From: Arthrobacter antibioticus
GTDB lineage: Bacteria > Actinomycetota > Actinomycetes > Actinomycetales > Micrococcaceae
Direction of reading: 5' to 3'
Length of the DNA stretch: 64,000 nt
Assembly: GCF_030063205.1 (NCBI RefSeq)
Contig: NZ_JASISQ010000002.1
Coordinates: 62,001 to 126,000, forward strand
Positions within the stretch are counted from its first letter, which is position 1. Each line of letters begins with the position of its first letter. The notes beneath the pieces are model-generated. The model searched no databases and was not told where the DNA came from. It saw only the letters and a list, made by a program, of their open reading frames with translations. The translations under genes were made by a program, and so were the position numbers. Of this stretch, positions 19,333 through 33,058 are shown one piece after another.

Positions 19333-20154
19333 TCAACGGGGTGGGGAGGGGAGTTCAGCCAGGATGCTGCGCAGGATTTCTTCCCCAGCCATAACGCCGC
19401 GCACGGAGGTGAGACGAAGGTGGGTGGCGGAGTAGCCGGCGTCGTGCAACTCACCGTGGAGGGGACGGTAGGCGAGATCGGCGTGCTCCAACATGCCTTG
19501 ATCCAGCAGAGAATCTCCGGCTGCGATGACAGTGCCGGCACCGGTGCGGCGGGCAACCTCTGCCAGCGCGTCCGTCTTGTTAATAGGCAGCGGTACACAA
19601 TAAAGTTTCCGGCCCTGAACCGAAACGCTCCAGCCAGCGTCGGCGCACAACGCCATCAGTTCTTCCAGGAAGGAATCGGGCATAGCCTCGCGGTCAATGA
19701 TGGCGTAGACAAAGAGGTCTTCGGCGCGGCGCACACGCAGGATCCACGACGCAAAATCGGGTTTGGATAGATAAGCGTCAATTGTTTCTACGGGCGCGCA
19801 GCCAGCCGCCATCCGTGCCGAAAGCTGTTCATGCCAAAGCGCATCAGGGATGCCCCGGTGCAAGAGCACCCCGCCATTGGAGGTAATGGCATAGTTGGGC
19901 ACGGCACCGGGCAACTGCACACGTTCATACTGGGCCTGTGTGCGGGTGGTGACCGGAACAAACGTGGCGGCAGCTTTCACACTGAGCAGGAGTTCCTTGG
20001 CAGCGCAGGTCATGAAGGACAATGGGGCGCCCTCATACACTTCGGCAACAACCAGGGCCGGAGCATCCTTGTCAGCCCCCGTTAGCCACAGCGCATTTTT
20101 GGAGTAGATGAGAGTTCTGTCGAGGTCGCAGGCCACCAGCGTTGAGGTGCTCAT
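19333..20154 (-). CDS. HAD-family hydrolase of the Ter biosynthetic module
   Basis: Haloacid dehalogenase superfamily phosphatase, 273 residues. The nucleophile motif is CDLDRTLIYS (Asp10, Asp12 region), and the C-terminal acidic motif is AAGDSLLDQGML. In published comparative work on Ter systems, HAD phosphatases accompany PRTase, StiP and CitE-like enzymes and are predicted to make a nucleoside-like compound. Its ATG overlaps the stop of the StiP gene by 4 bases (ATGA), so it is translationally coupled. The substrate is unknown. Confidence 0.87.
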   Translation of the reverse strand: MSTSTLVACDLDRTLIYSKNALWLTGADKDAPALVVAEVYEGAPLSFMTCAAKELLLSVKAAATFVPVTTRTQAQYERVQLPGAVPNYAITSNGGVLLHRGIPDALWHEQLSARMAAGCAPVETIDAYLSKPDFASWILRVRRAEDLFVYAIIDREAMPDSFLEELMALCADAGWSVSVQGRKLYCVPLPINKTDALAEVARRTGAGTVIAAGDSLLDQGMLEHADLAYRPLHGELHDAGYSATHLRLTSVRGVMAGEEILRSILAELPSPPR

Positions 20155-21320
20155 GCGTTATGCACTGCCTTGCCATCCGCGCCCACAGCGCTTTTATCGA
20201 ACTGCGGATGGATCAAACCAACGCAACTATAGGGCAGATCCGGCACTTCCTCCACCGGGGTGCCGCGTTGGGCGGCCAGGAGCAGAACGTGGGCAATATC
20301 GCCCTTGGCGCCCGGATTGACCAGCACCCGCCATGGCACCCGGCGCAGCAGCACCCGCGTGGTTTCGCCAACGCCGGGCTTGACGAGATTGACGTTATTG
20401 ATTCCGTACTTTGTGCTGATTTGCTCCACGGCATCCCAGCCAATCCAGCTCGGCGCCGGGTCAGCAGCGCGGTGGGACGCGAGCTGGCGCTCGACCTCCG
20501 GCCCCACCCGATCAAAGTGGGAACAGATGGCAGTGATGAAGTCATTTGACACATCATTGGGGGCAAGCTCTGAGTAGAACTTTGCCCCGTGAAAGTCCTG
20601 CGGGCCAATGTGTTCCACGTTGAATACGGTGCGCGAGACCAGCCCGGACACCGTGGAGTTCAGACAGGCTGAGGGAATCAGATAGTCCTCCCGGGTGCCA
20701 AACATTGATACGCAATGCCCGGGATCGGCAAGCACGGCCAGATCGTCCGGGAAACGGATACCGGTTTCAGCGGCAAAGTCATCGAGGGCCGCTGTTAGCT
20801 CGCGTGAAATGGCGCCCTTTCCCGTCCAGCCGTCCACAAAAAGGATCCGTTCCGGATCAAAATGTGCTGCCAGGTAATGCAAGGCAGTCTTATCCAGACC
20901 AACTCCGCGAACAATGCTCATGGTGAAATGCGCCAGGTCCACACCGTGAGTTTGCAAAGCCCAGCGGCGCATCAAAATGCCGATCGGGGTGCCTGCGCGC
21001 GCCAAGGAGACCAGAACCGGCTGGTTGTTCCGGGCCGCCAGAGCCAGCTCGCTCACAACACCAACCGCCGTGGCAATCCGCTCACCCGAGCGTTCAACTG
21101 CTTGCTGATACAGCCCCTGATATTCCGCACTGGGCGAGTATTCCACCGGCAGCGATTCGGCGTAATTTGCCGCCCCGGACTGAATGGCGCGCTCGCGCTC
21201 AGCTGTGGGGGCCTCCAAAGCCAAGTGGCTTAAATCCTTGAGCAGCCAGGAGACGTCCTGCGCCGCATAGGAGCCAAAGTCCGGCCCGGTGAGAGCGGAG
21301 GGAAGGGGAGAAGTGCTCAT
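20151..21320 (-). CDS. StiP/PRTase_1-like protein of the Ter locus
   Basis: 389-residue protein of the family annotated both as StiP (putative cysteine protease) and as PRTase_1 in Ter-associated operons. A PRPP-loop-like motif ILFVDGWTGKGAISREL lies near the middle, preceded by VDLAHFTMSIVRGVG and followed by GHCVSMFGTREDYLIPSACLN. It is coupled by 4-base overlaps to the PRTase-TRSP gene before it and the HAD gene after it. The biochemical activity, whether nucleotide-sugar transfer or proteolysis, is not settled for the family. Confidence 0.82.
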   Translation of the reverse strand: MSTSPLPSALTGPDFGSYAAQDVSWLLKDLSHLALEAPTAERERAIQSGAANYAESLPVEYSPSAEYQGLYQQAVERSGERIATAVGVVSELALAARNNQPVLVSLARAGTPIGILMRRWALQTHGVDLAHFTMSIVRGVGLDKTALHYLAAHFDPERILFVDGWTGKGAISRELTAALDDFAAETGIRFPDDLAVLADPGHCVSMFGTREDYLIPSACLNSTVSGLVSRTVFNVEHIGPQDFHGAKFYSELAPNDVSNDFITAICSHFDRVGPEVERQLASHRAADPAPSWIGWDAVEQISTKYGINNVNLVKPGVGETTRVLLRRVPWRVLVNPGAKGDIAHVLLLAAQRGTPVEEVPDLPYSCVGLIHPQFDKSAVGADGKAVHNA

Positions 21321-22870
21321 GGCGTGACCTCTGTATCAATGCTGCTGGGAATGCTGCTGTGAATGTTGGCGGGTTGGTTGCCGCGCACAGGGGTATCGAC
21401 CGGCAGCAAAACGAGAACGACGTCATCGGCTATCCCCGCCAGGGCAAGTCCCAGCGGCTGGAGTCCGGCACCGGGGCGATCAGGCGTAGTGCTACCCGTC
21501 AGGACATCTTCGCGGCTGGTCCCCGGCTCGGGAAAGACCACAATAGTACCTGGGCGCTGGCCGGTTCCATTGAGGTTGTAAGCAAAACGAATGCCCGGCC
21601 CGTCATGAGTGAGGTCATGGCTGGCAAAGCTGAGGGCGCCGGCAATGGCGTAACCAGACTGATCGAGCGCAACAATAGGGGATCGCGTGGTGGTGGAGAA
21701 CCGCACATCCCCAGCTGGCAGCAAACTCGCCAACGTATTGGCCACCGCCAGCGGTAGGAACATGTTTTCCTCGCAACCCAGCACCACCAGCGGTCCTTGA
21801 CACTTATGCGTGCCCACCAGGTTGGACAGCGCCTTGGCAATGACGTCAATGTCAGCAGCATTGGGTGGGCTGATGTTGCCAAAACGGTCGCTGCGCACGG
21901 GCGTAAGGTCTTCCGAGGAAAGTTCAAGCACAGACAGGCGCCCCGCAGGTTTGGGATTAGCGGCAGGCACCGGGCTAACGGAAGCAGGGGGTTGCAACCG
22001 TTGAATGAGCTCGGCGGCTCTAGGAAGAATATCCGGCGCTAACTCAACCCGGGCCTTCCCCAGCGCCGTCACTGCAATCTTGCAATCCAGTTCCGTCGCC
22101 AGAGCATCAAAACGCGCACGATCACTGCTGCTGCGAAGGTCAATCAATGCCGCAATAACGTACACCGCGTGCGGCACCAAGGCGTGCAGCTCACGAATGG
22201 TGTTAATGACAGTTGAGCCCGTGCTGAGTTCATCGTCCACCAAAATAACCGGCCCATTGCCATCCAACCAATGCGGATCGGTAGGAACCAAAGCATGCGA
22301 GGTGGCGTGCGAGTGCCCTTCCTCAAAACCCGCCACAGGAACAACTGACGGCGTGGCGTGGCGGGTGGAATGAAGATAGTAGGCACCCAATGAGTTTGCC
22401 ACCAGGCGCCCTAGCCCGGTGGCGGTTTCGGCATACCCAAGAACGACGGCGTCGGTCACCACTGTACGCAGCCCGGCCACCGTCTCCGCGAAGGCTGCGA
22501 TAGCCGAGTGCCGCTTCCCTGGTGAACCCTGTAGGACAGCGCTCAACTGCGCAGCCGCGGTGGTGAGAGAGGACTCTCCGGTGGCCGGAAGCGTCCGGGG
22601 GTGGCCGCCGTCGTCCGGCATGAGCGCTAATTCACTGGCCACGAAGGCACCCAGCAGTTCACCGGCAGCCATCACTAAAGCGGGCTCGGTGGGCACGTGT
22701 TTCGCCAAAACGGCGGAGACCAACAGATGGGCGCGCTTGGGATTGCGGCGGAGGGCCAAACCAACCAAATCTTGCACTGCCACGGCACTCTGAGGGTCAC
22801 TGTGGATGGCCACATCGAGCTGATCTGCAACGAAATCGCCGGACCAGGGACGCTGTTGGGAGATGCTCAT
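21317..22870 (-). CDS. Phosphoribosyltransferase with TRSP domain (PRTase_2-TRSP)
   Basis: Cytosolic two-domain enzyme of about 517 residues. The N-terminal half is a type I PRTase with the PRPP loop ILVDDELSTGSTVINTI. The C-terminal half is the TRSP domain, named after a motif that is visible as TTTRSPIVALDQ. It is predicted to build a nucleoside-like product together with the lyase, StiP and HAD enzymes. The ATG at 22870 overlaps the lyase stop (ATGA). Longer starts would lie inside the lyase gene. The C-terminus ends in a less ordered Pro/Ser-rich tail. Confidence 0.85.
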   Translation of the reverse strand: MSISQQRPWSGDFVADQLDVAIHSDPQSAVAVQDLVGLALRRNPKRAHLLVSAVLAKHVPTEPALVMAAGELLGAFVASELALMPDDGGHPRTLPATGESSLTTAAAQLSAVLQGSPGKRHSAIAAFAETVAGLRTVVTDAVVLGYAETATGLGRLVANSLGAYYLHSTRHATPSVVPVAGFEEGHSHATSHALVPTDPHWLDGNGPVILVDDELSTGSTVINTIRELHALVPHAVYVIAALIDLRSSSDRARFDALATELDCKIAVTALGKARVELAPDILPRAAELIQRLQPPASVSPVPAANPKPAGRLSVLELSSEDLTPVRSDRFGNISPPNAADIDVIAKALSNLVGTHKCQGPLVVLGCEENMFLPLAVANTLASLLPAGDVRFSTTTRSPIVALDQSGYAIAGALSFASHDLTHDGPGIRFAYNLNGTGQRPGTIVVFPEPGTSREDVLTGSTTPDRPGAGLQPLGLALAGIADDVVLVLLPVDTPVRGNQPANIHSSIPSSIDTEVTP

Positions 22871-24060: not shown

Positions 24061-24107
24061 GGGTCCTTTCGAACTGCTGGCTGAGGCACTACTTTCCGAC
24101 TGTTTTT

Positions 24108-24146
24108 CCCGCTGTGCTGTCCCGCTGTGCTGTCCCGCTGTGCTGT
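24108..24146. repeat. Three copies of a 13-bp tandem repeat
   Basis: CCCGCTGTGCTGT is repeated three times exactly (24108-24120, 24121-24133, 24134-24146), with a partial fourth copy CTCGCTG. It sits in the 103-base gap between two Ter genes, just upstream of the biosynthetic block. Copy number may vary between strains and alter the leader of the lyase mRNA. Confidence 0.85.
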
Positions 24147-24163
24147 CTCGCTGGGAGGGACGT

Positions 24164-24964
24164 TTAACGCCCGTAGGCAGAGGCTGGTGCTTTGTGGGTC
24201 ATAGAGAAATCGAATTCCTGCCAAATCGTGTTGTCAGGCCAGTCGTGCGGAACGGGCTCCGCCCGTAGCTCCAGCACATTGCCAATTCTATGCACCAGCA
24301 GAACAATCTGGGTACCGTCAGCGGCGGGAGGCAGTGCCACGGTTTGTCCCGTCAGTAGCCTGACGCCCATTGCGGCGCTGCTGCGATTGATGAAGATCGC
24401 ACGTCGAAGCTCACGTACATGACGCAGGGTGATTAGGACATCTCTGCCTTGGTAGGCCACTAGTTCTCGGTTACCAGATGTCATAACGGGAGAGCCGGCT
24501 TTGTGTCCGTCAACTGTTTGTCCACCCGTCACATGGCGCACACTTTCCCACGCGACGGCTGTGCTGCCACCGATCACCATGGTGCCAACCGCGGATTCAA
24601 GGGCGGATAGCCGGAGTACCCGCTCATCGAGATTGAGCTCAAATACCTCCGCTATTCCAGGAGCCTTGAAAAGCAACTGGACCTCGTGGTCTTCCCGGCC
24701 AGCTTTCTCCCGTTGAGCCTCCAGCTTTTGCATGCGTGCGGTAGTAGACGACGACGGGGCGTTGGCCCGCAGATTCAAACCTGCCGAACGCTGGGCTGGC
24801 ACAGAGGGCGTCCGAGCGGGTGAGCTTGGTGCTAAGGACAACGACGCAGCTGGACTTGAGGCAGCACTTTGAGCAGTGGCTGGCGTGTCCGCTTGACCCC
24901 GGCCAGGTTTGATCCGGCGGCGCAGAAAGGGTAGATCAGTACGTGGATTCGAGGAAACATTCAT
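24164..24964 (-). CDS. TerD/TerA-like protein with disordered N-terminus
   Basis: 266-residue protein in the Ter operon. Residues 1-75 are rich in Ser, Ala, Pro and Arg and are probably disordered. After a short charged helix (RMQKLEAQREKAGRED) comes a beta-rich domain (VFELNLDERVLRLSALE... GTQIVLLVHRIGNVLELRAEPVP). The family cannot be named firmly. The position, size and beta-rich fold suggest a TerA- or TerF-type relative, but the Ca-binding acidic loop of TerD is absent. It lies 9 bases after the preceding TerD-family gene. Confidence 0.65.
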   Translation of the reverse strand: MNVSSNPRTDLPFLRRRIKPGRGQADTPATAQSAASSPAASLSLAPSSPARTPSVPAQRSAGLNLRANAPSSSTTARMQKLEAQREKAGREDHEVQLLFKAPGIAEVFELNLDERVLRLSALESAVGTMVIGGSTAVAWESVRHVTGGQTVDGHKAGSPVMTSGNRELVAYQGRDVLITLRHVRELRRAIFINRSSAAMGVRLLTGQTVALPPAADGTQIVLLVHRIGNVLELRAEPVPHDWPDNTIWQEFDFSMTHKAPASAYGR

Positions 24965-24973
24965 GGGATGGCT

Positions 24974-25525
24974 CTACAGCCTGATTCCGTAGTCCTTGGC
25001 CACTCCAGCCAACCCTGTGCTGTAGCCCTGACCCAGTGCCCGAAACTTCCAGTCGGAGCGGTGCCTGTACAGCTCACCAAAGATCATGGCCGTGACAGTC
25101 TCAAGCTTCACGGCCGAAAGATCGAAGCGCACCAACTCACGGTTATCCGCTGTTGCAACCCGGATATGGGCGCTGCGTACAGCCGCAAAAGTGCCTTGCC
25201 CACGAAATTCAGGATCCACGTAGACCAAGAAAATGATCTTGGTAATGTCCTCAGGTACCTGGCTTAGCGCAACATCAATTTGTTCTTGATCCCCATCACC
25301 GATGAACGTGACTGAGGAATCGGCGCTGACCAGCTGGTTAAAAAACACCAAGTGCTCGTTGGAAACGGCCCTGCCATCCGCACCACACATGAGGGCGAAA
25401 GGAACCAACTCAGCTTGGGGTCCGTTACTGGGGATGGTGTCCCAGCCCATGCCCACTAAGACGTGGTCAAGACCGGGATTCTCAGCCGTCAGGGCGGCAT
25501 TCGCCCCCGCCACTAATGCTGCCAA
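24974..25525 (-). CDS. Divergent TerD-family protein
   Basis: TerD-domain protein, 183 residues, recognised from GLDHVLVGMGWDT, HLVFFNQLVS, IIFLVYVD and the end WKFRALGQGYSTGL followed by YGI. The acidic calcium-binding loop found in the three other TerD copies (GDNxTGEGDGDDE) is shortened to GDGDQEQID. The N-terminus also lacks the usual MxxLxKGxxxSL start. It overlaps the preceding unknown gene by 13 bases. It may therefore be a non-calcium-binding partner in a TerD complex. Confidence 0.83.
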   Translation of the reverse strand: MAALVAGANAALTAENPGLDHVLVGMGWDTIPSNGPQAELVPFALMCGADGRAVSNEHLVFFNQLVSADSSVTFIGDGDQEQIDVALSQVPEDITKIIFLVYVDPEFRGQGTFAAVRSAHIRVATADNRELVRFDLSAVKLETVTAMIFGELYRHRSDWKFRALGQGYSTGLAGVAKDYGIRL

Positions 25526-26070
25526 CTTTGGCCCTCCAAACGCAATGGGTCTCTTTCTGAAACTGGTTGGTGAAGTTGCAAGGCAGCGTCCTGCTCGGAG
25601 AATTTATCCGCCAGGAAGCGTCCGTGTGTGGAGAGTTCCTCCACTGCGCCGATGCGAATCTGATTGAGCAGATCCGCAAGGGTTTGTTCAAGGGTTGCCA
25701 GCTGCTCGGCAAACAAAAACGTGGCAGGGGACTCCTCATCGTGATGTGAGGGTGGTAGCCCCAGATACGCCTGCAACGGGGTGGGAACATAACTACAAAT
25801 CATTGCGTTCAGCAACACTCGTTGCTCCGTAGAACAGCCCCGCACACTGATGTCCGCAACTGTGACGCGCATGAGATCCCCTAAATGACGCAACTGGGAC
25901 GTCAATAATGGTGGCAGCTTGCTTCCAGACCTGCGCACGGCAGCGCGCAGAGTATCTACAGCGGCACCCATCTGGGAGATTTCCTCTGCCACTGGATCAA
26001 CTGCGGGGCGGTCAGGAAGCTGCTGTGCGGCACCACCGCCAAACATGCCCCCCACAAAACGGCCAATCAT
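25513..26070 (-). CDS. Unrecognised protein in the Ter operon, 185 residues
   Basis: I do not recognise a family. After a Gly-rich N-terminus (MIGRFVGGMFGGGAAQQ) the sequence is mostly amphipathic helix: VAEEISQMGAAVDTLRAAV, then LLTSQLRHLGDLMRVTV, then FLFAEQLATLEQTLADLLNQI. There are no clear membrane spans. It sits between telA (35 bases after its stop) and a TerD-family gene it overlaps by 13 bases, so it is part of the unit. It could be a scaffold between TelA and TerD proteins. That is inference. Confidence 0.7.
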   Translation of the reverse strand: MIGRFVGGMFGGGAAQQLPDRPAVDPVAEEISQMGAAVDTLRAAVRRSGSKLPPLLTSQLRHLGDLMRVTVADISVRGCSTEQRVLLNAMICSYVPTPLQAYLGLPPSHHDEESPATFLFAEQLATLEQTLADLLNQIRIGAVEELSTHGRFLADKFSEQDAALQLHQPVSERDPLRLEGQSWQH

Positions 26071-26105: not shown

Positions 26106-27299
26106 CTACTCCCGTTCAGACTGGCGTGAACGCTCCAGGTACGGCTTGGCCTTAGCCAATCCACTCTCCAGCGCGTTCACGGTTCCTTCCATGTTCTTGG
26201 CTGCCGAAGCCCGGAACGTATCAATGGCATCCATGGTCTCAAACACGTTGTCGAAGGCCTTCTGCAACGTTTCAACGCTGACTCCGGAGCTGGAGGCTTG
26301 CTGGTGAATACGTACTGTCTGATCCTTGAGCATCTCAGAAGTTTTCAAGATCATGTTATTCGTGGTGGTGTTGATGGCATCAATCTGATCAAGGACCATC
26401 TTCTGGTTGGCAAGTGCCTGGGCCACGATCACGGCGGTGCGAAGCGCAGAAATGGTGGTGGTGCGGGCCCTGTCAACGCCCTTGATGAGCTCAAGGTTGT
26501 TCTTGCGGATCAGATCCATGGCCAGGTAGCCCTGCACGGAAACTGCAAGCTGAGTCAGGATGTCTTGGTGGCGCTGACGAATGGGGAAAAGGACATCGGC
26601 TTCAAGCTTTTGGGCCTGCTCAATCTGGCCTGAAGCGCGTGTGGCGTCAATTTTTTCAACACAGGCGCCATCCAAGGCCTTGGCGAACACTGCGTATTCA
26701 CTTAAGCTCTGCATGGTTTCCCATAGCTTGACCTTTTCCCCGGCCAGCGAGGCATTGTCCTTCAGGAGTTCATCCTGACCGGTCATGAGCGACTTGATAA
26801 TGGCATCAATTTGGGTCTGCGCTGACTCGTACTTCTGAAAATATTTTGCCAGCTTGTTGCCGCCGGGGATGAAACCAAGAATTTTCCGGCCCACACTAAG
26901 ATCGGCGTTATTGGGCGTCAGGTCTTCAACGGTTGAGCGCAGATCGTTTAGCGTGCCAGCCACCTGGGCCTGGGCACTATTGCCACTTTTTTTAGCTCCG
27001 GAGACTGACGTTGACGAGCGCTCCAGCATACGGCTTGAGGCGCCTGCTGAGTTGGTCATTTCATTGCCGGCGAGCTTGCTAATGCCATCTACTTTGGTGG
27101 TGAACTCGGGGCTGCGCGCATCAAAGGCCGCTATTTCGGCGATGTATTCCTTGGCCTGACGGTTGATTTCGCTCTGACGTTCCGCAGGAACGGGAACCAT
27201 GCCGGGAGCTTCGTCGGCCACAACAATGTCAGGGGCGTCCGGAGCCTTCAAAACAAGCGCTGTTTCGGATTCAGTGGGGGGTGTTAGTGGTGAAGTCAT
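26106..27299 (-). CDS. telA: Toxic anion resistance protein TelA
   Basis: Helical cytosolic protein of the TelA/KlaA family (about 397 residues) found with tellurite resistance and TerD systems. The C-terminal family block is visible as RTTTISALRTAVIVAQALA, followed by KTSEMLKDQT and DNVFETMDAID. The N-terminal 40 residues are Pro/Glu-rich. The ATG at 27299 (MTSPLTP) is chosen because upstream in-frame starts would fall inside the preceding terD gene. The mechanism of the family is unknown, and its presence marks a complete Ter module. Confidence 0.88.
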   Translation of the reverse strand: MTSPLTPPTESETALVLKAPDAPDIVVADEAPGMVPVPAERQSEINRQAKEYIAEIAAFDARSPEFTTKVDGISKLAGNEMTNSAGASSRMLERSSTSVSGAKKSGNSAQAQVAGTLNDLRSTVEDLTPNNADLSVGRKILGFIPGGNKLAKYFQKYESAQTQIDAIIKSLMTGQDELLKDNASLAGEKVKLWETMQSLSEYAVFAKALDGACVEKIDATRASGQIEQAQKLEADVLFPIRQRHQDILTQLAVSVQGYLAMDLIRKNNLELIKGVDRARTTTISALRTAVIVAQALANQKMVLDQIDAINTTTNNMILKTSEMLKDQTVRIHQQASSSGVSVETLQKAFDNVFETMDAIDTFRASAAKNMEGTVNALESGLAKAKPYLERSRQSERE

Positions 27300-27477: not shown

Positions 27478-28059
27478 TTAGCCCATCGGGACACCGAAGT
27501 CGGCAACAATTCCGGCCAGGCCGGAGGCGTAACCCTGGCCCACTGCTTTGAACTTCCATTCGGTGCCGTTGCGGTAAATTTCTGCGAACAGCATGGAGGT
27601 TTCCGGCGCAGCATCCTCGCTGAGGTCAAAACGAACAATTTCTTGTTCGCTGCCCTGGTTGACCACACGGCAGTAAGCTCCGCGGACTTGACCGAAGTTC
27701 TGTCCGCGCACATCTGCCTGGTCAATGGAGACAACGATGACTACGCGCTCAACATCTGCGGCGATCTTGGCGAGGTCGATCAGAATCTGCTCGTCATCGC
27801 CGTCACCTTCGCCCGAACGGTTGTCACCAAGGTGGGTGACTGAACCGTCCTTGGCAGCTGGCTGGTTGTAGAAGATGAAGTCATCACCTGAGCGGACCTT
27901 GCCCGTGGCTCCAACGAGCAGCGCGGACGCGTCGAGGTCAAAAGCCTCACCCGTGGTGGTGCGCGGATCCCAGCCCAAACCAACGAGTGCTTTCTGCAGG
28001 CCCGGATCGGTTTTGGTCAAAGAAAGGTTGTTGCCTTTTGCAAGCGTGAGTCCAGCCAT
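27478..28059 (-). CDS. terD: TerD-family calcium-binding stress protein
   Basis: Canonical TerD fold, 193 residues, starting MAGLTLAKGNNLSLTKTDP. The calcium-binding loop SGEGDGDDEQ is intact, as are GLGWDPRTTTG, DDFIFYNQ and the end WKFKAVGQGYASGL. Family members bind Ca2+ and protect against tellurite, oxidative and envelope stress. It is a near twin of the next upstream gene (28144), which points to tandem duplication. A 178-base gap to telA contains no gene. Confidence 0.92.
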   Translation of the reverse strand: MAGLTLAKGNNLSLTKTDPGLQKALVGLGWDPRTTTGEAFDLDASALLVGATGKVRSGDDFIFYNQPAAKDGSVTHLGDNRSGEGDGDDEQILIDLAKIAADVERVVIVVSIDQADVRGQNFGQVRGAYCRVVNQGSEQEIVRFDLSEDAAPETSMLFAEIYRNGTEWKFKAVGQGYASGLAGIVADFGVPMG

Positions 28060-28143: not shown

Positions 28144-28725
28144 CTAGTCCAGAACAATTCCGTAGTCAGTTGCAATGCCGTGCAGGCCGCTGGCGTAGCC
28201 TTGACCAACTGCGCGGAACTTCCATTCTGCGCCGTTGCGGTAAATCTCAGCGAAGACCATAGTTGTTTCCGATGCCGCATCCTCGGAGAGGTCGTAGCGA
28301 ACAATCTCTTGCTCGTTGCTCTGGTTGACGACGCGGCAGTATGCGTCGCGGACCTGGCCAAAGTTCTGGTGGCGGGCTTCCGCCTGGTCAATGGAAACTA
28401 CAATGACCACACGCTCAATTTCCGGGGAAACTGTTGCCAGGTTGATGAGGACCTGCTCGTCGTCGCCGTCGCCTTCACCTGTGCGGTTGTCACCCTGGTG
28501 AACAACCGAGCCATCCTTGGACTCCAACTGGTTGTAGAAAATGAAGTCGTCATTGTTGCGGACTTTGCCGCTGCTTGTGACCAAAATGGCCGATGCGTCC
28601 AGATCGAACTGATCGCCGCTGGTGGTGCGTGGATCCCAGCCTAATCCCACCATGGCCATCTGCAGACCGGGGTCTGCCTTGGTCAGGGAAAGGTTGCCGC
28701 CCTTGGATAGTGTCAAAGATGCCAT
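28144..28725 (-). CDS. terD: TerD-family calcium-binding stress protein
   Basis: TerD protein of 193 residues (MASLTLSKGGNLSLTKADP) with an intact acidic loop TGEGDGDDEQ and the closing WKFRAVGQGYASGL. It is about three-quarters identical by eye to the copy at 27478, and the DNA is similar as well. The ATG has AGGAG 9 bases upstream. It lies between two further terD genes in the same direction. The multiple copies may form mixed multimers, as proposed for Ter complexes. Confidence 0.92.
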   Translation of the reverse strand: MASLTLSKGGNLSLTKADPGLQMAMVGLGWDPRTTSGDQFDLDASAILVTSSGKVRNNDDFIFYNQLESKDGSVVHQGDNRTGEGDGDDEQVLINLATVSPEIERVVIVVSIDQAEARHQNFGQVRDAYCRVVNQSNEQEIVRYDLSEDAASETTMVFAEIYRNGAEWKFRAVGQGYASGLHGIATDYGIVLD

Positions 28726-28806: not shown

Positions 28807-29400
28807 CTACAGGGCGTTGGCTGCCGGCTGGATCAAGTCCATTGCCGTGCGGCCGTTGGCACGCTCACCAATGGCCGTGAACTTCCAGCCTGAGTCTTCA
28901 CGGGAGACCTTGGCCATGATCATGGCTGTGTGGGTGCCCGCATCGGTCAGCTGGAACCGGGCAACCTCGGGGGTGCCGGCCGTCGAATCATCCACAAGGC
29001 GGCAGAACGCGTTTTCAATGGTGTCGAAGGTCTGGCGGCTGTAGCTGCTAATGACAAACACAATCTGGGAAACAGCGGGAGAGACTTTTGACAGGTCTAC
29101 CAAGATGGTCTCGTCATCGCCGTCGCCTTCACCGGTGAGGTTGTCGCCTGTGTGCTTAGTGGAGCCATCTTTACTCTGCAGCTGGTTGAAGAACACCGTG
29201 TCAACGGCCTTGCCGCTGCCGTCAAAGAAAATGGCCGAAGCGTCTAAATCAACATCGGGAGCCTTCTTCAGGCCACCAAACAGCCCGCGCTTGACGGGGG
29301 CTGCAGTATCCCAGCCCAAGCCCATCCGCACCCGGGTGAGGGAAGCGCCGTCGTTCTTCTTCAGTGAAAGGGTTTGGCCCTTTTGCAAACTAAGTCCCAT
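28807..29400 (-). CDS. terD: TerD-family protein, third copy
   Basis: TerD protein of about 197 residues starting MGLSLQKGQTLSLKKNDG, with GLGWDTAAP, an insert KRGLFGGLKKAPDVDLDASA, the acidic loop TGEGDGDDET and WKFTAIGERANG. It is more diverged than the other two canonical copies and has a short insertion before DLDASA. The ATG at 29400 has AAAGGAG about 9 bases upstream. The longer frame would run into the DUF475 gene. It is the first terD after that membrane gene. Confidence 0.92.
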   Translation of the reverse strand: MGLSLQKGQTLSLKKNDGASLTRVRMGLGWDTAAPVKRGLFGGLKKAPDVDLDASAIFFDGSGKAVDTVFFNQLQSKDGSTKHTGDNLTGEGDGDDETILVDLSKVSPAVSQIVFVISSYSRQTFDTIENAFCRLVDDSTAGTPEVARFQLTDAGTHTAMIMAKVSREDSGWKFTAIGERANGRTAMDLIQPAANAL

Positions 29401-29437: not shown

Positions 29438-30556
29438 CTAGCTGGAGAGTTGTTCCACCCTGTGTGAATCGGCCGCAGCTGCGCGTTTGTTTCGAACAAT
29501 TGAGGATATGAAGGCGGCGCCAATGAAGACAAGGCCAATAACTCCGGTGATAACTTCATTGACTTCGAAGCTAATGGTCAATAGAAGGATGACGGAGAGT
29601 GCACCGATGGCCCAGTGTGCACCATGATCTAAGTATTCAAAGTCATCAAGTGTGCCTTCACGCACGAGGAACACGGTCAGTGATCGGACGAAGATAGCGC
29701 CGATCAAACCAAGGCCCAAGGCGATGATGATGGGGTCGGAGGTGATGGCGAAGGCGCCAATAACGCCGTCGAATGAGAACGATGCGTCGATGACTTCCAA
29801 GTACAGGAACAACATGAAAGCAGCTTTACCAACAGCCTTGCCGACGCCTTTATTGGCTTTCTTCGCAATTTTTGCCGCTGTTGCGTCGGTATCTTGGGCA
29901 TCGGTTTCACCGTCCCCGTCAACGTCAAACATGTCACCAAGGCCGTTTACGAGTACATAAGTAATCATGCCCAAGATGCCAGCAATAAGCACATCCACTT
30001 CTTTGCCCGGGCGGACCATGACGGCTGAGGCGACGAGGATGAGCAGGGCGATTGCCATGGAGGCACCGTGCAGGCGGCCAATAACCGCCAGTGGCTTTTC
30101 CAGGAACCCCAGCCAGTGGATCTCGCGCTCTTCAAACATGAAATCAAGGAACAGCATGAGCAGGAAGACGCCACCAAATGCGGCAATCTGGGGGTGGGCA
30201 TCATGGAGCAGGTAGGCGTAGCTGCCGGCAGTATGGATGTCGCCCTTTTCCAAGGCGAGTTTAATGGCTTCCACCGGGTTTAGGTTGGCGGTGACGCCCA
30301 CAATCAACAAGGGGAATGCCACACGCATGCCGACAACGGCGATGAGAATACCGACCGTGAGGAAGATTTTCTGCCAGAACTCGTTCATTTTTTCTAGAAT
30401 TCGCGCGTTCACAACAGCATTGTCAAAACTGAGACTGATCTCCAAAACACCCAGAATGGCGCAAAGGATCAGGGCTTGAAAGCCGCCGTAGAAGTAGGCA
30501 ACAACCAGTGCCACCGCGGTGATCCCGAAGGACCAGCCAAAAGTTTTCATGAACAC
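29438..30556 (-). CDS. DUF475 (TerC-type) integral membrane protein
   Basis: Membrane protein of 372 residues in the TerC/DUF475 superfamily, with eight or nine hydrophobic segments. The family's charged helices are visible as ISLSFDNAVVNARIL near residue 45 and DASFSFDGVIGAFAITS later. The two SFDNA/SFDG acidic motifs inside membrane segments suggest metal ion binding or transport. A short acidic loop (VDGDGETDAQDTDATAA) precedes the second half. It heads the Ter unit. GAGGAG sits 11 bases before the GTG at 30556. The ATG two codons on (30550) is the alternative. Confidence 0.9.
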   Translation of the reverse strand: MFMKTFGWSFGITAVALVVAYFYGGFQALILCAILGVLEISLSFDNAVVNARILEKMNEFWQKIFLTVGILIAVVGMRVAFPLLIVGVTANLNPVEAIKLALEKGDIHTAGSYAYLLHDAHPQIAAFGGVFLLMLFLDFMFEEREIHWLGFLEKPLAVIGRLHGASMAIALLILVASAVMVRPGKEVDVLIAGILGMITYVLVNGLGDMFDVDGDGETDAQDTDATAAKIAKKANKGVGKAVGKAAFMLFLYLEVIDASFSFDGVIGAFAITSDPIIIALGLGLIGAIFVRSLTVFLVREGTLDDFEYLDHGAHWAIGALSVILLLTISFEVNEVITGVIGLVFIGAAFISSIVRNKRAAAADSHRVEQLSS

Positions 30557-31933: not shown

Positions 31934-33058
31934 ATGACCCAAGCACCTGATCCGTCCTTTGCCCCTGTGTCCACTAATACCGTGTCCACTAATACCGTGT
32001 CCACTAATACCGTGTCCACTAGTACCGGGTCCACTAATGCCGGGTCCGTTGACCTTGGGGCCCTTGCAACGTTGCCCAAAGCCGAGCTGCACCTGCACAT
32101 TGAGGGCACACTTGAACCGGAATTAATCCTGGAGCTGGCAGCCCGCAATGGCATCACGTTGCCATTCCCAACACTGGATTTACTGCGGGAACAATATGAT
32201 TTCAGCGATCTGCAGTCATTCCTGAACCTGTATTACGCCAATATGGCTGTGCTCATCACGGAAGCCGATTTTGCAGATATGACGCGCGGCTATCTGCGCC
32301 GCGCCCAAGAACATGGGGTGCGCCATGCGGAGATCATGTTTGATCCGCAGGCCCATCTGGTGCGCGGTGTGGAATTGTCGACGGCGGTTAACGGTATTGC
32401 GGGTGTCCTAGCTTCCAGCGAGGCTGACTTTGGTATCAGCACGGCCTTGATTGCGGCCTTCCTGCGGGATGAGTCTGAGGAGTCGGCGCTGGTGGTTTTG
32501 GAAGCACTGTTGGAGATGGAAGCGCCCATCATTGGTATTGGCCTGGATTCGGCCGAGGTGGGAAATCCGCCGTCGAAGTTCATTCGGCTCTATAAGCGGG
32601 CTGCTGTGGCAGGTCTGCGACTGGTGGCTCACGCCGGGGAAGAAGGGCCGCCAAGCTATGTTGAAGACGCGCTGAATCTGCTCGGTATTGAGCGGATCGA
32701 CCATGGCATTAGGGCCGTGGAAGATAAATTCCTGGTCAAGAGACTTGTCGCGGAGCAGGTTCCCTTGACTGTTTGTCCGCTGTCCAATGTGCGCCTGCGT
32801 GCCGTTGATACATTGGCCGCCCACCCGCTGCCTCAGATGATAGATGCAGGGATGAACGTGTGTGTGAATTCTGATGATCCAGCCTACTTTGGTGGCCATG
32901 TGGGGGATAACTTTGCCGCCCTAGTAGCCGAATTTGGTTGGACTGTGGAAAAGGTGGAGAAACTGGCGGCAAACTCCATCCGTTCCTCTTTTGCCACGAA
33001 AACCCGCAAGGAGGAATTGCTGGCGGAACTTGCACAGTGGAGCGCCGGGCAAGGCTAA
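31934..33058 (+). CDS. Adenosine/adenine deaminase family protein
   Basis: Zinc amidohydrolase that converts adenine or adenosine to hypoxanthine or inosine. Metal and catalytic motifs are HLHIEGT (His53, His55), HAGEEGPP, IDHGIRA and NSDDPAYFGG. The last motif and VCPLSNVRLR are of the adenine-deaminase-like subgroup of the ADA family, so adenine is the more likely substrate. The first 40 residues are an added Thr/Ser/Asn-rich tail coded by a 15-bp tandem repeat. The conserved domain begins at PKAELHLHIE. Confidence 0.9.
   Translation: MTQAPDPSFAPVSTNTVSTNTVSTNTVSTSTGSTNAGSVDLGALATLPKAELHLHIEGTLEPELILELAARNGITLPFPTLDLLREQYDFSDLQSFLNLYYANMAVLITEADFADMTRGYLRRAQEHGVRHAEIMFDPQAHLVRGVELSTAVNGIAGVLASSEADFGISTALIAAFLRDESEESALVVLEALLEMEAPIIGIGLDSAEVGNPPSKFIRLYKRAAVAGLRLVAHAGEEGPPSYVEDALNLLGIERIDHGIRAVEDKFLVKRLVAEQVPLTVCPLSNVRLRAVDTLAAHPLPQMIDAGMNVCVNSDDPAYFGGHVGDNFAALVAEFGWTVEKVEKLAANSIRSSFATKTRKEELLAELAQWSAGQG
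31967..32056 (+). repeat. 15-bp in-frame tandem repeat in the deaminase 5' end
   Basis: Three exact copies of GTGTCCACTAATACC (31967-32011), then one with one change (32012-32026), one with two changes (32027-32041) and a decayed sixth. Each codes for VSTNT-like pentapeptides. The exact copies at one end and the decayed ones at the other suggest recent expansion. The unit keeps frame, so copy number can change without loss of the enzyme. Confidence 0.93.

Follow-up and report, generated by a model that had tools for sequence, protein, structure and literature searches.

XpaC (PF10112, listed as Halogen_Hydrol, '5-bromo-4-chloroindolyl phosphate hydrolysis protein') is the known neighbour of TelA in Clostridia, Bacillus and Listeria. 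Two such pairs have been placed in envelope-stress operons. According to the portions of the sources drawn on here, xpaC-yaaN belongs to the core sigma-W regulon of Bacillus subtilis (PMC3498285), and lmo1966-1967 of Listeria is LiaSR-regulated, with a modest rise in expression (log2 0.6) on exposure to bacteriocin (PMC12791056). The latter report, published in 2026, cites a 2010 paper for the higher sensitivity to nisin and tellurite that follows disruption of lmo1967, and itself states that the mechanism of Lmo1967 is not known (PMC12791056). For Ter systems, a comparative paper proposes, in the part of the source consulted, that TelA assembles into structures beneath the membrane, with TerD as a possible sensor of a nucleotide-type signal (PMC7824862).

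The Ter operon and its 185-residue protein

The window, which is the whole stretch of 64,000 nucleotides from Arthrobacter antibioticus that was analysed, contains a co-directional run of genes on the minus strand from 30556 to 19333, beginning with a TerC-like protein and ending with a HAD hydrolase. Pfam matches and gene direction place TerD, TerC, TelA and biosynthetic-arm genes in this one run. The Ter system components TerC, TerD, TelA, C-C lyase, PRTase/TRSP, StiP/PELOTA and HAD are all present in it, together with two proteins, of 185 and 266 residues, that match no curated family searched. In the order of the run, the features are:

29438..30556, minus: membrane protein of the DUF475 type, presumably TerC-like; matches a Curtobacterium protein with DUF475 annotation at E 3e-124
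28807..29400, minus: TerD-domain protein, start chosen by reading; PF02342 E 4.3e-50 on a longer frame
28144..28725, minus: TerD; PF02342 E 5.9e-81
27478..28059, minus: TerD; PF02342 E 5.7e-78
26106..27299, minus: TelA, 397 residues from the ATG at 27299, start chosen by reading; PF05816 E 4.7e-87
25513..26070, minus: 185-residue protein, probable XpaC-like TelA partner; open frame, found in 17 of 22 genus genomes, under purifying selection, AlphaFold2 helical bundle
25533..25537, minus: GGAGG within the 3' end of the 185-residue gene, read from the sequence; putative ribosome-binding site for the divergent terD
25513..25525, minus: 13-nt overlap of the 3' end of the 185-residue gene with the start of the divergent terD; the same in 15 of 17 in-genus loci
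24974..25525, minus: divergent TerD-domain protein; PF02342 E 1.3e-51
24164..24964, minus: 266-residue protein of no family (no Pfam or NCBIfam match); homologs in loci L115-L118
22867..24060, minus: C-C bond lyase of the Ter biosynthetic arm; PF15617 E 3.5e-108
21317..22870, minus: PRTase_2 and TRSP protein, start chosen by reading; PF15609 E 5.8e-61 and PF12500 E 1.2e-21 on a longer frame
20151..21320, minus: StiP and PELOTA_1 protein; PF11202 E 5.9e-101 and PF15608 E 1.2e-34
19333..20154, minus: HAD-type hydrolase, last in the co-directional run described; PF08282 E 0.0069, below its cut-off

The same gene order is repeated in loci L115-L118, as far as those stretches extend, and promoter- or terminator-like sites between 24900 and 31000 were fewer than the shuffle mean. 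A preliminary description of this DNA had called the terD gene that follows the 185-residue gene divergent. This holds for its sequence but not for its direction, as all genes from TerC to HAD lie on the minus strand.

The 185-codon frame, which runs from ATG to TAG, begins 35 bp past the TelA stop codon and is preceded by AAGGG. At its other end it overlaps the divergent terD, which starts with TTG (25525-25523) behind a GGAGG located 7 nt upstream, by 13 nt including the stop codon, and its position between telA and terD is thus as had been described. A TTG, GTG or ATG was found exactly at the terD start position in 15 of the 17 in-genus loci, each with an overlap of 13 nt, which supports the TTG start. 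The two exceptions are a locus with an overlap of 1 nt (L017) and a locus that contains an N and has no clear start (L011). A Shine-Dalgarno-like GGAGG or GGAAGG was located within the last 30 nt of the 185-residue gene in 16 of the 17 loci. The overlap is real and conserved, and it fits translational economy. The step from the overlap to a shared complex with TerD, which the preliminary description had taken, is not supported, as translational economy fits the overlap and TerD is an inconstant neighbour outside the genus.

In a search of 38 related genomes, the 185-residue gene was detected in 17 of the 22 genomes of the genus, the window's own counted, with identities of 53 to 89% in the remaining genomes. 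None of the 17 frames is interrupted, and the same divergent terD is next in each locus. Neither a disrupted frame in relatives nor absence from related ter loci, both of which had been named as observations that would speak against the preliminary description, was encountered, and the five of 22 genomes without the gene are also without TerD. The median dN/dS among 11 in-genus sequences of equal length was 0.08, indicating purifying selection, and third codon positions accounted for 4026 of the 5975 pairwise differences among the same sequences (1287/662/4026 by codon position). The open frame in all 17 loci, the low dN/dS and the codon-position skew indicate that the 185-residue frame is a real gene, far from a chance reading frame.

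All five congeners without the gene (G003, G005, G010, G018 and G021) have TelA. No match to the 185-residue family was found in them at E 0.01 or better (best E 0.1 and 0.85), and no TerD was found. Within the genus, the 185-residue protein is gained or lost with the Ter genes and not with TelA alone, and these five congeners count against a strict dependence of TelA on the protein. In L213 and L216, TelA adjoins a gene that resembles, by eye, the window gene at 31934, which we take to be adenosine-deaminase-like, and the TelA locus there and the window locus may be the same chromosomal site. A weakly CorA-like protein (below cut-off) lies directly after TelA, in the place of the 185-residue gene, in these two loci of congeners without TerD and the 185-residue protein (L213:4408-5625 and L216:4356-5495).

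Several other features were observed around the operon. The 266-residue protein has a Pro/Ser-rich N-terminus and is conserved after the divergent TerD in congeners; a relationship of this protein to TerD was considered and found to be unsupported (Prob 1.5). In a pair alignment with the neighbouring TerD, 7 residues are missing from the acidic loop of the divergent TerD. This loop is presumably part of the calcium site, and calcium binding by the divergent TerD may perhaps be unlike that of the other TerD proteins. A 13-bp tandem repeat of 3.6 copies is located at 24107-24153, between the 266-residue gene and the C-C lyase gene. A 15-bp repeat of 5.4 copies at 31967-32047, in the N-terminal part of the presumed adenosine-deaminase-like gene, encodes a VSTNT peptide repeat.

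Distribution of the family and its neighbours

Pfam and NCBIfam scans of the 185-residue protein and 48 family members yielded only scattered weak matches (best E 0.0045 and 0.0053), all to unrelated families and taken as chance. PF10112 was not among the 25 of 29 matched Pfam families that were listed for the 48 members. The earlier statement that the protein belongs to no recognised family therefore holds for the curated libraries searched, but a probable distant relative, XpaC, was found as described below.

A first profile, built from 20 sequences, identified the family in 43 of the 296 class genomes sampled. A second profile (A7), consisting of the first profile and remote homologs found near TelA, identified it in 55 of the 296 genomes, which included all 53 genomes with TelA over its cut-off and two without TelA. 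The family is thus present in 53/53 genomes with TelA and in 2/243 others, with a Fisher p of about 1e-56 that overstates independence as the genomes are kin. A family copy was located within about 2 kb and on the same strand for 53 of the 56 TelA genes in this sample. Measured as gaps between profile matches, the family match was 42-266 bp downstream of TelA in 30 cases, 1.6-2.0 kb downstream in 22 and upstream in one. The three TelA genes with none nearby were second TelA copies in two genomes (G117 and G305) and a TelA gene whose partner was on a different contig (G110).

Conversely, 12 of 61 fetched stretches hold a family protein without TelA. TerD was detected in 24 of the 49 loci with both TelA and the family protein and was not detected in the other 25, by a single-sequence search of fetched stretches of 6.5-12 kb that could miss divergent TerD proteins. 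Distances between family proteins and between the TelA proteins of the 49 loci were correlated (Mantel r 0.88), a value of little weight as species history was also followed. In the class as a whole, the genomic evidence leans towards TelA, whereas within the genus the protein tracks the Ter genes. Viral contigs held no relative of the family, and among plasmids it was found in three Curtobacterium records. In one Curtobacterium plasmid Ter locus, an annotated site-specific DNA-methyltransferase lies between TelA and the family gene (L021:7189-7926).

The neighbours of the family gene differ among locus kinds. Where the family match lies 1.6-2.0 kb from TelA, the intervening protein combines a solute-binding and a vWA domain in the one locus scanned (L119), and a protein of the same kind precedes a family copy without TelA in L094. 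This second kind of locus, with a solute-binding/vWA protein beside the family gene, therefore occurs both with TelA (L119:5717-8935) and without it (L094:2770-6207); a further locus (L107:5936-9385) looks similar from its arrangement alone. The upstream proteins in L094 and L107 had no Pfam match at E 0.01. In two other loci (L059 and L064) an AAA+ ATPase follows the family protein.

A hydrophobic N-terminal segment was detected in 13 of 61 family members at a hydropathy cut of 1.7. These comprised seven of the 12 members without TelA and six of the 11 that were fetched for the 1.6-2.0 kb type; the remaining five of that type had values of 1.62-1.69. Hydropathy of the congeners gave no membrane segment for the window protein. 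Many soluble members start, as seen by eye, with a short aromatic, arginine-rich stretch, and it is a guess that this stretch is a peripheral membrane anchor.

Predicted structure and relation to XpaC

The AlphaFold2 model of the window protein (pLDDT 88.5) is a helical bundle with helices at residues 26-47, 54-77, 81-94, 96-103, 107-110 and 115-165. The first ~20 residues are Gly-rich, as had been noticed before, and modelled with little confidence (mean pLDDT 57 for the first ten residues and 70 for the next ten), and the model has six helices instead of the three amphipathic helices proposed earlier. The model of the XpaC domain (pLDDT 87.0) has helices at 2-23, 27-49, 51-80 and 86-134, so that the predicted helix lengths are 22/24/14+8/51 residues in the window protein versus 22/23/30/49 in XpaC. 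The top VIA match of both models was the same designed protein, 5cwo_A, over the same chain range (3-112), which corresponds to residues 25-139 of the window protein and 1-114 of XpaC; this fits the hhalign register, in which window residue 139 is opposite XpaC residue 114. Taken alone, bundle matches of this sort prove little; helical bundles can look alike. No match at E 0.001 came from fold searches in PDB or among viral models, and the VIA-align Z, which reached 12.7 for a designed protein, lies where the tool regards values as common among helical bundles. By sequence, no solved structure was matched at E 10 by the single 185-residue protein, and the best match of the profile (E 0.01) covered 66 positions of an effector protein.

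PF10112 did not match the window protein at E 10, nor any protein of its genome at E 0.001, and it was over its cut-off in six of 296 genomes of the phylum sample, all of them outside the class of the window. From 592 clostridial relatives of XpaC the best 80 were kept. In 74 of these 80 loci TelA follows downstream on the strand of XpaC and within the fetched flank, and in the remaining six the stretch stops 6 to 978 bases past the match. In the two annotated XpaC records considered, TelA comes right after XpaC in Vescimonas and is not nearby in Pusillibacter.

Profile-profile comparison of the family with XpaC by hhalign gave Prob 74.9 with seven XpaC sequences and Prob 90 (score 39.8) with 27, versus scores for the controls of 3.1 on average and 17.0 at most for 96 column shuffles, 6.1 for the reversed family and 3.6 for TelA. 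In a search of 10,081 ORFs with a family HMM that contained no XpaC sequence, 38 XpaC ORFs (best E 1.3e-5) outranked all of the roughly 9,900 background ORFs, the best of which had E 0.13; these 38 are mutually related and were counted as one event. The reciprocal search with an XpaC HMM was weak, in that its top nine matches were family members with a best E of 0.08. One bridging locus (G507:C9:1044655-1045086) was matched by A7 at E 7.4e-6 and also passed the PF10112 cut-off, at E 8e-8. The other five of the six PF10112 genomes were missed by A7, which gave three more weak matches (E 2.9e-4 to 1.5e-3).

The window protein shares with XpaC a helical domain of similar predicted topology, in which a Y-x-P motif (YLP/YVP) stands before a last helix of ~50 residues and the YLP motif is in register with XpaC, as indicated by hhalign and by the similar order and lengths of the predicted helices in models compared without superposition. 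Its gene, 35 bp from TelA, is like xpaC near telA and on the same strand, and a hydrophobic N-terminal segment occurs in some of the family branches as well. The N-terminal membrane segments seen in clostridial XpaC sequences are absent from the window protein. Because it fails the Pfam XpaC model and has no such segments, the 185-residue family is best regarded as an XpaC-like sister family and not as a member of XpaC, with homology that the sequence comparisons support fairly well. The profile-profile search and the structure prediction, both proposed in the preliminary description, are consistent with its helical protein and added the probable remote relation to XpaC. A pairing of XpaC with an actinobacterial Ter operon was not found among the titles and abstract starts listed from open-licence papers.

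Proposed role and comparison with described systems

The reading that we prefer, with a probability of roughly 0.6, is that the 185-residue protein is the soluble counterpart of XpaC and the usual partner of TelA, and that it links TelA to the sensor side of the operon. It would be a cytoplasmic version of XpaC without N-terminal membrane segments and would bind TelA, which would build structures under the membrane, as the part of the proposal consulted has it (PMC7824862). The protein might then connect TelA to the sensor side, here the divergent TerD encoded by the overlapping gene, with a role in envelope or oxyanion stress. This role is suggested by the XpaC-TelA pairs in envelope stress, the proposed roles of TelA and TerD, and the anatomy of the locus. 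The adaptor role put forward in the preliminary description is accordingly plausible, although the coupling argument from the terD overlap does not support it. Counted against the preferred reading are the five congeners that keep TelA without the protein, the two genomes that have the protein without TelA, the gene order, which is reversed versus the clostridial loci, and the Pusillibacter XpaC without TelA. The lack of a PF10112 match and of a membrane segment in the window protein, the weak XpaC HMM search, the PF10112 genomes missed by A7 and the 12 of 61 stretches with the protein and no TelA weigh in the same direction.

A competing explanation, which we consider unlikely but the strongest of those weighed, is that the protein is primarily a partner of TerD. 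It would then be an adaptor peculiar to this operon that serves the divergent TerD, and TelA would be no more than its neighbour. This explanation would account for the 13-nt overlap conserved in 15 of 17 in-genus loci, for the five genus genomes that are without both the gene and TerD yet have TelA, and for the 24 of 49 loci with TelA and the protein in which TerD was detected. The other 25 loci, within the limits of that search, and the co-occurrence with TelA in 53/53 genomes of the class sample argue against it.

A different kind of explanation, rather improbable in our judgement, is that the protein is a helical bundle similar to XpaC by chance, without descent from it, and became linked to TelA independently. 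The low identity, the failure of the PF10112 model to reach the window protein, the weak reciprocal HMM search, and best PDB matches of the model that are designed helical proteins and assorted bundles would all be expected of such a protein, but the profile match exceeds the 96 shuffles and the reversed control, XpaC ORFs rank above the background ORFs, and a bridging locus exists. Linkage to TelA is common to both families, and hydrophobic N-terminal segments occur in XpaC and in some family branches. There is very little probability that the protein is an enzyme or a metal-binding helical Ter protein, for example TerB-like, instead of an adaptor. The Ter operon around the gene holds sensors and enzymes, and a weak Metal_resist match was observed (E 0.18, below cut-off), but no conserved catalytic or metal-ligand set is present among the invariant and near-invariant columns of 47 sequences (P53, Y94, P96, P106, Q123, L124, L146, F152, L153 and F157); TerB is not among the listed Pfam families (25 of 29), which excludes nothing.

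A broader and more tentative proposal, which may well prove incorrect, is that TelA together with an XpaC-type helical protein makes up a single ancient envelope-stress effector of two parts, into which sensors are plugged via the XpaC-type part: TerD, a solute-binding/vWA lipoprotein or an AAA+ ATPase, depending on the kind of locus. The window protein would then be the hub variant that joins TelA to Ter signalling. TelA is widespread, and its partner family, present in every TelA genome of the class sample, has at least three kinds of neighbours. The 185-residue family, which can now be found in other genomes, therefore gives a handle on which protein TelA works with and on what feeds signals in.

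In conclusion, the window pair resembles xpaC-yaaN of B. subtilis and lmo1966-lmo1967 of Listeria, which are XpaC-TelA pairs in envelope-stress operons as far as the sources drawn on describe them. It differs from them in that XpaC is upstream of TelA in both, whereas the window gene comes after telA, and in that the window gene is part of a TerD/TerC operon with a biosynthetic arm, whereas no Ter genes are named for the two pairs in those portions of the sources. The family to which the window protein belongs is uncatalogued in the libraries searched and comprises soluble and membrane branches of probable XpaC-like partners of TelA, including a branch that is located in Ter operons; it appears to be a variant of a known pair and not a new kind of system.
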